DNA of 64,000 bases from Parvibaculum sp. (GTDB taxonomy: Bacteria; Pseudomonadota; Alphaproteobacteria; Parvibaculales; Parvibaculaceae): positions 124,001-188,000 of the forward strand of contig JAUSMV010000012.1 of assembly GCA_030645235.1 (NCBI GenBank), in the 5' to 3' direction. Shown here piece after piece: positions 35,828-43,000 of this stretch. The notes under the pieces were generated by a model. The model was not told the origin of the DNA, did not search any database, and was given only the letters and a program-made list of their open reading frames with translations. Both the position numbers and the translations under genes were made by a program. Position 1 is the first letter of the stretch; every line of letters starts with the position of its first letter.

Positions 35828-36976
35828 CTAAACGGGCTGAATTTGCGTTAAGGGGCCTCCGGCCAGCGTCACATCGTCACTTCTGCGTGTGGGTAGGTCA
35901 GAATCATCCCGAAGCGCCAGATTGGTCAGAAACTGGAGCGTGCAGGCCTCCCATGAAAACGTGAGCGCAAAGTCGCGGGCGGTCTCGCGCGGGATGGTCA
36001 GCGCGCGCCGTGCCGCCACTTCAATGTCGTCGTCGAGGGCGCCTGCCGGATGATCGCCGATGACATCGGCCGGCCCCTGTACCGGATAACCCGCCACAGG
36101 TGTACCGGCAGCAAGGGCTTCGATGAGGACAAGGCCGAATGTGTCGGTGCGGCTCGGAAACACAAAACAATCCGCCGCTGCATAGGCTTCCGCCAGAGTT
36201 TCACCAAAAAGCGCACCCGCAAAATGCGCTTCAGGGTGGTGTTTTTTCAGATGCTCAAGGCGCGGCCCCTCGCCGACGATGAGTTTGCTGCCTTTGAGGT
36301 CTGCTTCCAGAAACGCGTCAATGTTTTTTTCCACTGCGACGCGACCGACATAGAGAAAGACAGGTCGTTTCAATCCGAGCGGATGAGCACCTTGCAGGTC
36401 GGGACGCGGGCGGAAGAGTTTTGTGTCCACTCCGCGCGACCAGATGGACGGCTTGCCAAAGCCGCGTGCTTCGAGTTCTTGTTGCAATGAGGTGGTTGCT
36501 ACCATGATCGTTGTGGCGCGCCTGTGGAACCAGCGTAGAAAAGCATAGGACCAACTCAGTGGAAAGCCTGTGCGTGCATGGAGATACTCGCCAAAGCGCG
36601 TATGGAATGACGTCGTAAAAGGCAGACCGCGACGGAGGCAGAAGCGCCGTGCGGCAAGACCCAGCGGGCCTTCCGTGGCGATGTGAATAGCATGCGGATT
36701 GGCAGCTTCTATCATTGCCGCCATGCGTCTTCCGGGCAGCACCGCCAGCCGGATTTCTTTATAGCTTGGCATAGGCACGGTGCGGAACAGGTCAGGCGTG
36801 ATAGGAATGACCTCGTGACCCATAGATGTGAGTTGTTCCCGGAGCTTACCCAGTGTGCGTACGACGCCGTTTACCTGCGGTGCGGCGGCGTCGGAAACGA
36901 TTACAATGCGTAATTTTTTTTCGGCGCGGCCAAGAGCGGGGTCCGCAACCTGATACGTCTTTTTGAGAAAAATCAT
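35828..36976 (-). CDS. agt: GT4 glycosyltransferase, Agt-like (diacylglycerol glycosylation)
   Basis: This 382-residue GT-B enzyme has RIVIVSDAAAPQVNGVVRTLG, SFHTRFGEYLHARTG, FLYVGRVAVEKNIDAFL and the GT4 E-x7-E donor motif within FGLVLIEALAAGTP. The start ATG 36976 overlaps the stop of the PlcP-like gene by ATGA. This order, a COG2908-type phosphoesterase followed by a GT4 enzyme, is the known plcP-agt pair, in which Agt transfers a sugar from a nucleotide sugar to diacylglycerol to make glycolipids that replace phospholipids. The assignment rests on family and context; other GT4 mannosyl- or glucosyltransferases look alike. Confidence 0.78.
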   Translation of the reverse strand: MIFLKKTYQVADPALGRAEKKLRIVIVSDAAAPQVNGVVRTLGKLREQLTSMGHEVIPITPDLFRTVPMPSYKEIRLAVLPGRRMAAMIEAANPHAIHIATEGPLGLAARRFCLRRGLPFTTSFHTRFGEYLHARTGFPLSWSYAFLRWFHRRATTIMVATTSLQQELEARGFGKPSIWSRGVDTKLFRPRPDLQGAHPLGLKRPVFLYVGRVAVEKNIDAFLEADLKGSKLIVGEGPRLEHLKKHHPEAHFAGALFGETLAEAYAAADCFVFPSRTDTFGLVLIEALAAGTPVAGYPVQGPADVIGDHPAGALDDDIEVAARRALTIPRETARDFALTFSWEACTLQFLTNLALRDDSDLPTRRSDDVTLAGGPLTQIQPV

Positions 36977-37956
36977 GCGGCGCTCAGCACATTGATGTCG
37001 TCGGCTTCGGTTTCCACGGGATTGGAATATCCTTCCTGAGTCCATGAGAAGCGCTGCCAGTTGATGATGCTGAGCTGGCCCGTATCGTCTTCGGCCAGTG
37101 CTGTGCAGCTTTCCACCCAGTCTCCGTCATTGCAGTAGAGTACACCGTCAATGTCGCGCATTTCAGCATGGTGGATATGGCCGCAGATCACGCCGTCCAC
37201 GCCGCGCTCGCGGGCCTCGCGGGCCAGCGCCACCTCATAGCTTGAGATAAACTCGACCGCGTTTTTGACTTTGTGCTTAAGCCATGACGATAGCGACCAA
37301 TAATCAAAGCCTAAGCTGCGGCGAACCGTGTGCAGCACATTGTTGACATGCAGTGTGAACTCATAGGCACGGTCGCCGAGATGGGCGAGCCATTTGGCAT
37401 ACTTGACCACCCCGTCAAACTGGTCTCCGTGAATAACGAGGAAGCGCCGACCGTCTGCCGTCTCGTGGGTTGTTTCGGCGAGCACATCAACGCCGCCAAA
37501 GTTGAGACCTGTATAGTCGCGTAAAGCTTCATCGTGATTGCCGGGTACGTAGATAACGTTTGCCCCTTTACGCGCTTTGCGGAGAATTTCCTGCACAACC
37601 GCATTATGCGCCGCTGACCAATACCATGAGCGTTTCAAGCGCCAACCGTCGATAATGTCGCCGACGAGATAGATCGTCTCGGCATCGTTGTGGCGGAGAA
37701 AATCGAGCAGTAACTCAGCCTTGCAACCGGGCGTGCCTAAGTGAATGTCTGAAAGAAAAAGCGTGCGGTGACGCTTTCGGTGCTTTGGCCGTTGGCCGGT
37801 GAGGCGGGCATCAAGTGCCGGACGACGTGAGCGAAAGCGGCTCTTGTCACGTTTGGAGGGGACCCGTGTTTCAACAGGCGTTTGGAAATCTGCGTTTCCG
37901 GTGTCACTTTGGAAATTTACATTTCCGGGAGCGAATACATTTTCGATTGACGTCAT
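36973..37956 (-). CDS. plcP: Metallophosphoesterase, PlcP-like phospholipase C (UDP-2,3-diacylglucosamine diphosphatase family)
   Basis: This 327-residue dinuclear metal phosphoesterase has SDIHLGTPGC, GDIIDGWRL, PGNHDEALRD, VIHGDQFDGV and CGHIHHAEMR, after a basic N-terminal region of about 70 residues. COG2908 contains both LpxH and PlcP; in alphaproteobacteria, PlcP removes head groups from phospholipids to give diacylglycerol during phosphate starvation. The overlapping GT4 gene and the repeated TGTCAT-like motif upstream favour PlcP over LpxH. The start is the ATG at 37956; a GTG at 37962 is also in frame. No strong Shine-Dalgarno is visible. Confidence 0.8.
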   Translation of the reverse strand: MTSIENVFAPGNVNFQSDTGNADFQTPVETRVPSKRDKSRFRSRRPALDARLTGQRPKHRKRHRTLFLSDIHLGTPGCKAELLLDFLRHNDAETIYLVGDIIDGWRLKRSWYWSAAHNAVVQEILRKARKGANVIYVPGNHDEALRDYTGLNFGGVDVLAETTHETADGRRFLVIHGDQFDGVVKYAKWLAHLGDRAYEFTLHVNNVLHTVRRSLGFDYWSLSSWLKHKVKNAVEFISSYEVALAREARERGVDGVICGHIHHAEMRDIDGVLYCNDGDWVESCTALAEDDTGQLSIINWQRFSWTQEGYSNPVETEADDINVLSAA

Positions 37957-38090
37957 GTCCACAACGACTGTTCGCGAACGAAATTGTTCGTTTACGGATC
38001 AGACGTCGTCTGCTCTTGAACTTAGTGCGGTCAAGAGCCTTCGCACCTGATCTTGCTATGGCTATATAGAAGGAGGACAAACAAGCTATC

Positions 38091-38119
38091 ATGACAGTAG
38101 GGTGACGGTTTGATGACAC
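38091..38119 (-). promoter_or_regulatory. Putative PHO box (three 7-bp direct repeats, 11-bp period)
   Basis: On the plus strand: ATGACAG, 4 nt, GTGACGG, 4 nt, ATGACAC. Read on the minus strand these are GTGTCAT, CCGTCAC and CTGTCAT, each separated by 4 bp, matching the PhoB consensus CTGTCAT-N4-CTGTCAT. The box points toward plcP, and TATATA (38063-38068) could be a -10 for that gene. It also lies 31 bp before the diacylglycerol kinase start, so it may influence both. Confidence 0.65.
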
Positions 38120-38149
38120 GTCGCTATTTGCTTTGAATTGGGGATTTTT

Positions 38150-39070
38150 GTGGCCTTACGCCGTTCGATCCATATCATTCTGAATCCGGTCGCCGGTGCG
38201 CGCCGTTCATATCTGTTGCACGACCTGATAGCGCGGCTCGAAAAGGCAGGTGCCGCTGTCACGCTGGTGGAAACATCGGGACCGGGTGATGCCACCTTGC
38301 TCGCCAAGCGAGCAGCTATGGGTAATCCCGACACTTTGCCTGATGTCATTGTGGCCGCGGGTGGTGACGGCACTATCAACGAAGTGGCGCGCGGCCTCAC
38401 AGGTCAGAGCATCCCGCTTGGTATCGTGCCGCTCGGCACAGCCAATGTGTTGGCGATTGAATTGGGTCTGCGTCCCCGCGCTGCCGAGATTGCCACCATG
38501 CTCCTTGCCGGTCCCGCACGTATCATGGGCACAGGGCTAGTGCAGGGTCGTTTGTTTCTGTTGATGGTCGGTATCGGCTTTGACGGACGCGTTATTCATA
38601 CGGTCAACCCGTCTTTGAAACATCGCTTCGGCAAGGGGGCTGTTATCTGGGCAGGCATTAAAGCGTGGGCGCGCGGGCCGGGGCAATCCATGAGATTGAT
38701 CGTCGATGGCCGCGAAAAACAAGCGCAATGGGTTGTGGTATTGAATGGCCGTTATTTTGCCGGTCCTTATGTGCTCGCGCAAAGTGGTGACATCACGGAA
38801 CCGGGTCTCACGCTTTTCCTTTTTCGTCACGGCTCGCGCTCTGCCTTTGCGCGTTATCTCCTGGCACTCGGTCTTGGTCGTGTTGAGCGTCTCAGTGATG
38901 TTGAAGTCATTGCCGCGCGTCATGTCGAAATTATCGCGGCCGACCGCGCCTCATCTCACATTGAAGTTGAAGTTGACGGCGATGCCGCAGGTGTGTTGCC
39001 GCAGGTGATTGAACAAGGCACAAAAATTCTGCGTCTCGTCGTGCCGTCTTCGTTCGGGGATAAAAACTAA
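38150..39070 (+). CDS. Diacylglycerol kinase family lipid kinase (DgkB/YegS-like)
   Basis: This 306-residue cytoplasmic lipid kinase has the catalytic domain motifs ILNPVAGARRSY, VIVAAGGDGTINEVARGL, VPLGTANVLAIELG, a long RIMGTGLVQGRLFLLMVGIGFDG segment and the C-terminal EVEVDGDAAG. It should phosphorylate diacylglycerol, or a related lipid, to phosphatidic acid. The start is the GTG at 38150, preceded by GGGGA; a TTG at 38138 is in frame. It is divergent from plcP-agt, whose product or substrate is diacylglycerol. Its stop overlaps the stop of the convergent transglycosylase gene by 4 bp. Confidence 0.88.
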   Translation: MALRRSIHIILNPVAGARRSYLLHDLIARLEKAGAAVTLVETSGPGDATLLAKRAAMGNPDTLPDVIVAAGGDGTINEVARGLTGQSIPLGIVPLGTANVLAIELGLRPRAAEIATMLLAGPARIMGTGLVQGRLFLLMVGIGFDGRVIHTVNPSLKHRFGKGAVIWAGIKAWARGPGQSMRLIVDGREKQAQWVVVLNGRYFAGPYVLAQSGDITEPGLTLFLFRHGSRSAFARYLLALGLGRVERLSDVEVIAARHVEIIAADRASSHIEVEVDGDAAGVLPQVIEQGTKILRLVVPSSFGDKN

Positions 39071-42382: not shown

Positions 42383-43000
42383 TCAGATGCAAAAACCCCA
42401 GGCTCGCGTCATCGCCACGGCGAAGGCGGTAATGTGCTGTTCAATCGGCAAAGCGCGCCCGTTAAAGAGCAACAACAGCGCGAGAGGCAGCAACGGTGCG
42501 AGCGCCAGCGGGTTTGCAATCGCTGGTTTTGTCTGCGGTTTGATCTGCCAGAGCAAAATTGCAGGTGCGATAAGCCCGACGAGACTGCCGAGTACGACTT
42601 CCGGTGCTGAATGTGCGTGAACAATCAGACGTGAAAAAGCAATGAGTGCGGCAAAGGCAAAGCCCGCGCTGAGGATCGCCCATTTCTGCCAGGCGGGTCG
42701 GTTGAGCTTGGCTTCCAGCACGGCATAGCCACCAAAGGCCGCAAAGCCCGCTGCTGCGTGCCCGCTCGGGCTGCGCAGGCCCCATCCCGGCAGCAAATGT
42801 CCGCAAGGTACAAAGACAAGCTTTAGCAACAAAACGACGCCCAGCGTCATCCCAATGGCAAGGAGCCATGTCCGTGCCTCGCGGCGTGCCTCGCCCATCC
42901 ATAGGGCGGCAGCCACCGCCAGTGCAAAAGGCAGGATGAAACTCTGATCGCCGAATTTGGTGAGGAGTTCAAAAAACCGGATGAGGGACACCAGATACAC
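42383..43000 (-). CDS. PAP2 family membrane phosphatase
   Basis: This 205-residue polytopic membrane protein of the type 2 phosphatidic acid phosphatase superfamily has the motif RSPSGHAAAGFAAFGGY (motif 2 PSGH) and AFSRLIVHAHSAPEVVLGSLVG, a motif 3 in which the usual final Asp appears as Glu. The first KxxxxxxRP motif is not obvious. It may dephosphorylate undecaprenyl pyrophosphate, phosphatidic acid or lipid A. The start is GTG at 43000 without a clear Shine-Dalgarno, so it is uncertain. Confidence 0.78.
   Translation of the reverse strand: MYLVSLIRFFELLTKFGDQSFILPFALAVAAALWMGEARREARTWLLAIGMTLGVVLLLKLVFVPCGHLLPGWGLRSPSGHAAAGFAAFGGYAVLEAKLNRPAWQKWAILSAGFAFAALIAFSRLIVHAHSAPEVVLGSLVGLIAPAILLWQIKPQTKPAIANPLALAPLLPLALLLLFNGRALPIEQHITAFAVAMTRAWGFCI

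Follow-up and report, generated by a model that had tools for sequence, protein, structure and literature searches.

The question raised by this locus is whether a lipid kinase gene standing beside the lipid-remodelling pair plcP-agt belongs to it, and how the three genes would then be controlled. Control of plcP-agt by PHO boxes is known from passages of earlier work (PMC4796936; PMC9239053). In the 64,000-nucleotide (nt) stretch of Parvibaculum sp. analyzed here, hereafter the window (contig C55 of a 3.83-Mb genome, G000), plcP (37962-36973, minus strand) encodes a COG2908-type metallophosphoesterase of the PlcP group with 329 amino acids (aa; PF12850, PF00149). It is followed by agt (36976-35828, minus strand), which encodes a GT4 glycosyltransferase of 382 aa (PF13439, PF13692) and whose ATG start overlaps the plcP stop as ATGA at 36973-36976. 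Head-to-head with plcP lies the gene of a soluble diacylglycerol-kinase-family lipid kinase (38150-39070, plus strand; DAGK_cat PF00781 and YegS_C PF19279). An earlier note on this DNA had placed three open frames at these positions with this overlap, which was confirmed, and had proposed that they run together as a diacylglycerol (DAG) cycle under one control region. We find that the kinase is a conserved third gene of the module, joined to plcP-agt by what is probably a two-way PhoB switch.

The arrangement was followed in the genus, in the class and among named loci. The kinase was present at ≥59% identity in 25 of 27 same-genus genomes, and PlcP in 24 of the 25 same-genus genomes surveyed for it. 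Both genes lay on a single stretch at 22 of the fetched genus loci; in 11, including the window, they were head-to-head neighbours, and in the other 11 they were split by an insert. Elsewhere in the genus, the locus of G023 was interrupted by a contig end, and G003 had plcP-agt without the kinase; its locus (L031) retained the PHO array, with a transglycosylase gene directly next. An evenly drawn sample of 152 alphaproteobacterial genomes contained 53 with PlcP (threshold E ≤ 1e-40). Leaving the window aside, this class set gave 53 plcP loci from 52 genomes (one genome contributed two), fetched with a few kb of flanking DNA; agt followed plcP at 52 of them and the kinase subfamily was divergently adjacent at 26. 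A kinase elsewhere in the fetched flanks was found at 0 of the 53 loci, one of which lacked upstream room. The divergent arrangement is therefore far beyond chance. Among the best 80 of at least 551 named loci (79 with a PlcP match, 7 of these without upstream room), the divergent kinase was seen at 21 of 79, including Azospirillum brasilense, Novispirillum itersonii, Caenispirillum bisanense and a Reyranella metagenome-assembled genome. The kinase was in two frames at 2 of the 21, and three named loci repeat class loci (L092, L123, L161). Hence the expectation of the earlier note that related genomes keep the divergent kinase held (11 adjacent loci in the genus, 26/53 in the class), whereas its view that the addition of the kinase is uncommon was not supported, as the kinase is ancestral in the genus and found at about half of the sampled loci. 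That the arrangement is special to this genome was dropped on the same three comparisons. One class genome (G133) carried two PlcP loci (L223, L229), with the divergent kinase at only one of them.

The control region lies between plcP and the kinase. A three-unit PHO-box array (GTGTCAT-CAAA-CCGTCAC-CCTA-CTGTCAT; 38119-38091, minus strand) faces plcP, with a score of 18/21 and a shuffle p of 0.005; on both strands of the window, only one other place scored ≥15. TATATA at 38068-38063 (minus strand), read directly, is the putative -10 element of a PhoB-dependent plcP promoter, and most arrays of the genus had CATATT or ATAT in the equivalent position. The pattern of a PhoB-dependent promoter, that is, 7-nt direct repeats in 11-nt steps with a -10 element at fixed spacing, was thus found on the plcP side, and this promoter element occurred on that side only. 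Of the 22 genus regions, 17 had a plcP-facing array that passed at 0.05 when tested against dinucleotide shuffles. A genome-wide search with the pattern STGTCAYN4SYGTCAYN4STGTCA at ≤3 mismatches gave nine matches versus one for the reversed control. The window array was the only match with zero mismatches, an exactness that is partly by construction since the pattern was written after the genus arrays had been viewed. One three-mismatch match lay just upstream of open reading frames (ORFs) of the phoB region, and PhoB itself scored above its model cut-off in the genome. As far as sequence can tell, the array, the genome-wide match and the shuffle test bear out the proposed phosphate control, and the single PHO-box array in the shared intergenic space of the window bears out the proposed single control region. 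A consensus sigma70 scan gave no match for plcP or the kinase, and the matches of a looser promoter scan, which overlapped PHO units or lay inside plcP, were disregarded. Little was added by aligning seven of the intergenic regions or by a repeat search. An 8-nt perfect inverted repeat (GCTCTTGA / TCAAGAGC, 38012-38038) lies after the plcP promoter element and ahead of the plcP start, and may be part of the leader RNA.

On its other side, the array of the window stops 30 nt short of the kinase start. Across the 22 genus loci, the box near the kinase ended 16-41 nt before the start and reached p ≤ 0.05 in 20; the better box pointed away from the kinase in 21 (with a tie in G018), and a box toward the kinase at p ≤ 0.05 was found in none. 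In the 11 insert genomes, where the distance between plcP and the kinase is about 5 kb, each of the two genes had its own array. The kinase array of these genomes was conserved, with 1.6 bits per unit column versus 0.59 in the flanks. No well-conserved element followed the kinase array in the 11 genomes; CATATT followed the plcP array in all 11. Upstream of the kinase array, a sigma70-like promoter of the form TTGACC-N17-GCTAAT (GCAAAT in G016) was present in 10 of the 11 insert genomes, and the same promoter type was seen in G013, which has two arrays and no insert, as if the insert had left. From its position after a promoter with a good -35 element, and from the missing promoter element of its own, the kinase array reads as a candidate operator.

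Since the array faces plcP and stands just before the kinase start, opposite control of the two sides would fit better than joint induction. We therefore favor, by a slight degree, a phosphate-controlled DAG branch point in this genus, in which PhoB would activate plcP-agt and repress the kinase. Under phosphate starvation, PhoB would bind the array and switch on plcP-agt; PlcP would cleave phospholipids, releasing DAG together with a phosphoalcohol, and the DAG would receive a sugar from Agt, giving a phosphorus-free glycolipid. The kinase would run the reverse branch, spending phosphate to convert DAG to phosphatidic acid, and PhoB bound just before its start would most likely keep it repressed for as long as plcP-agt is active. 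Once phosphate is available again, this hold on the kinase would be lifted and DAG could re-enter phospholipid synthesis. The fullest version of this proposal, to which we give somewhat less than an even chance, is that one PhoB array serves both as the activating promoter of plcP-agt and as the silencing operator of a phosphate-spending kinase, so that DAG would be directed into glycolipid during starvation and returned to phosphatidic acid during recovery; that both genes keep arrays when split by the insert would then mean that the kinase needs its own. We infer the enzyme activities, the substrates, PhoB binding and the sign of the PhoB effect on the kinase from sequence. The reciprocal switch, in which our confidence is a little over one half, is confined to this genus and not extended to the class. 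A repressing role would be in keeping with work on other bacteria: PhoB is described as activating or repressing depending on position (in parts of PMC10294691), and pit1 is listed among the most repressed Sinorhizobium meliloti genes in phosphate stress (in parts of PMC8829014).

Several observations weigh against the switch. A kinase promoter was not evident in the window itself by the consensus and looser scans. The arrays of close relatives are not independent of one another. A PhoB roadblock was sought at three intragenic Escherichia coli sites and not found, according to the part of PMC10294691 that deals with them. In the class, 22 of the 53 PlcP genomes lacked the kinase subfamily, and in the genus G003 kept plcP-agt without it. 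Two further points favor joint induction, in which PhoB activates all three genes at once and DAG not usable by Agt is recycled by the kinase. Outside the genus, a box at p ≤ 0.05 pointed toward the kinase at 12 of 43 adjacent loci and away from it at 7 of 43, with about 2 expected for each direction; the corresponding figures for the 13 non-adjacent kinases outside the genus were 2 toward and 2 away. Moreover, PlcP and DagK of Pseudomonas putida are described as PHO-dependent in a portion of PMC5082522, which favors joint induction there; DagK is absent from the passage of that source naming the proteins lost in the P. putida mutant, and the kind of kinase is not apparent from it. In the genus of the window, by contrast, no kinase had a toward-facing box at this threshold, and 10 of the 11 insert genomes had the kinase array close ahead of the start and preceded by a promoter that has a -35 element of its own. 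We accordingly regard joint induction as unlikely here, though the strongest of the alternatives, and the proposal of the earlier note that the three genes run together as a cycle was not supported, as the position of the array in the genus fits opposite control better.

Less probable still is a bystander role, with the kinase salvaging DAG or lipids in general and its position beside plcP carrying no regulatory meaning. The kinase subfamily was identified in 40 of the 152 class genomes, using a profile with a gap between 226 and 161 bits. Both proteins occurred in 31 genomes, PlcP only in 22, the kinase only in 9 and neither in 90; the subfamily was thus present in 31 of 53 genomes with PlcP versus 9 of 99 without it. 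These counts were tallied by eye and give an odds ratio of 14 (Fisher p 1e-10), uncorrected for kinship, genome size and completeness. The 9 of 40 subfamily genomes without PlcP, with their varied kinase surroundings, and the loss of the kinase from G003 would suit a bystander. The varied surroundings indicate that the kinase is not solely a partner of PlcP. On the other hand, the two genes were adjacent and head-to-head in 27 of the 31 genomes with both, including the window, and the kinase-side array was kept where plcP is 5 kb away, which makes such a bystander improbable in our view. A single alternative partner of the kinase where PlcP is absent was looked for and not found (14 fetched kinases not adjoining plcP, 13 of them placed by a simple gene caller, 20 neighbour proteins scanned); the G079 kinase was missed by the gene caller and left out of the neighbour analysis. 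At four loci of genomes without PlcP (L258, L264, L259, L261), the kinase was near envelope-type genes, namely those of an inositol monophosphatase family protein, an ABC exporter-type protein, PmbA/TldD and DUF374.

The identities of the two enzymes encoded on the minus strand agree with the earlier assignments. Over aligned columns, the phosphoesterase was 59-61% identical to the PlcPs of six other plcP-agt loci (two from Methylocystis, and one each from Labrenzia, Azospirillum, Burkholderia and Sphingomonas) versus 21% to E. coli LpxH; this test was pairwise, with one LpxH, and its PlcP side consisted of close relatives, e.g., Methylocystis, of experimentally characterised PlcPs. The phosphoesterase was the sole match of its kind in the genome of the window, which also encodes LpxI (LpxI_C above cut-off on contig C58). 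As another UDP-diacylglucosamine hydrolase is present, the phosphoesterase would not be needed for lipid A. Hence the phosphoesterase is PlcP-type and not LpxH, as its sequence relationships indicate, and the LpxH reading was dropped: that it is the LpxH of lipid A synthesis is highly improbable, even though its top NCBIfam match is the LpxH model and its solved relatives by sequence are LpxH, given 44 bits against a curated cut-off of 190, the identity values, LpxI in the genome, and the PHO array and adjoining agt. The glycosyltransferase of the window shared 51-60% identity with the protein encoded next after plcP in each of the same six genomes, which upholds its assignment as an Agt-type partner. 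The predicted products of an Agt from DAG are MGDG and/or GADG. For Methylosinus trichosporium, sections of PMC9239053 report that the glycolipid GADG requires plcP-agt and that type II methanotrophs, including Methylocystis, have the pair.

The kinase matched DgkB, BmrU and YegS structures by sequence and shared with these soluble lipid kinases the DAGK_cat domain, the C-terminal beta-sandwich (YegS_C) domain and the GGDGT motif, so that its placement in the diacylglycerol kinase family stands; its predicted substrate is DAG. It is not of the small membrane DgkA kind. It differs from DgkB, YegS and BmrU in belonging to a separate subfamily of plcP-type kinases (≥226 bits on the subfamily profile versus ≤161 for other kinases), in which all 14 aligned members carry DGD close to the C-terminus; the residues at this position are DGD in one solved relative and DGE in another. 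Contig C24 of the genome of the window carries a second DAGK_cat gene, which is distant. In a maximum-likelihood tree of 83 kinases, for which the bootstrap had not settled and many deep forks are open, the plcP-type kinases were separate from six paralogues (99/96).

The insert bears on the history of the locus. In 11 same-genus species (L037, L039-L043, L045, L046, L056-L058), plcP and the kinase are separated by genes for a PmrA/QseB-like regulator, a QseC/PmrB-like sensor, an EptA-type phosphoethanolamine-lipid A transferase and a PAP2 lipid A phosphatase-like protein, after which the kinase follows. On the kinase tree, the insert requires three changes, which we interpret as a single gain and two losses, and the head-to-head state is found in G169, G043, G147 and early-branching members of the genus. 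From this position outside and around the insert clade, the adjacent arrangement of the window is taken to be the older state and the kinase to be ancestral in the genus. The alternative that the kinase came as part of the EptA insert and later moved beside plcP was dropped for the window on the same ground. According to parts of PMC7559476 and PMC8027125, EptA enzymes leave DAG, eptA is co-regulated with dgkA, and mcr is linked to dgkA or hpap2. The EptA-type set directly upstream of the kinase in 11 relatives lends indirect support to a role of the kinase in DAG metabolism. The resemblance to the dgkA and hpap2 neighbours of eptA/mcr described in PMC7559476 is that EptA-type and PAP2 genes run into the kinase in these species; the differences are that the kinase here is of the soluble DAGK_cat family and that EptA was not found in the genome of the window, in a search without a positive control, though with tblastn the same query did find its relatives in the 11 fetched loci. 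An EptA-family gene (L147:6241-7839) of a betaproteobacterium (L13) was divergent next to plcP-agt, in the place often taken by the kinase in alphaproteobacteria.

Among known systems, the locus is closely comparable with the 'type 2' plcP context of Pelagibacter, Erythrobacter NAP1 and Methylosinus trichosporium OB3b, with which, as presented in portions of PMC4796936 and PMC9239053, it shares plcP directly upstream of agt and PHO-box control; it differs in having a lipid kinase gene that diverges from plcP and has a PHO array at the kinase start. The word 'kinase' is absent from the main text of both papers, their supplements lying outside this scope, and literature searches found no description of a divergent kinase beside plcP-agt in the parts of the literature covered. 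Work on PlcP remodelling has so far dealt with the origin of DAG and with which phosphorus-free lipid results. A kinase returning DAG to phosphatidic acid could set the extent of remodelling and the recovery on phosphate return.

The gene order around the locus is typA (minus), agt (minus), plcP (minus), kinase (plus), a transglycosylase-domain gene (minus) and an N-formylglutamate amidohydrolase-family gene (minus). The agt ORF was listed with a start at 37045, and the start in the ATGA overlap at 36976 gives the GT4 protein of the length stated above. For the kinase, the listed ORF start is TTG at 38138; GTG at 38150 is where homology within the genus begins, with GGGGA at 38140-38144 (plus strand), read directly, as a putative ribosome-binding site five nt before it. 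PAP2 enzymes are another possible source of DAG. A PAP2-family gene lies at 42383-43000 (minus strand), 3.3 kb beyond the kinase, and had no NCBIfam match.

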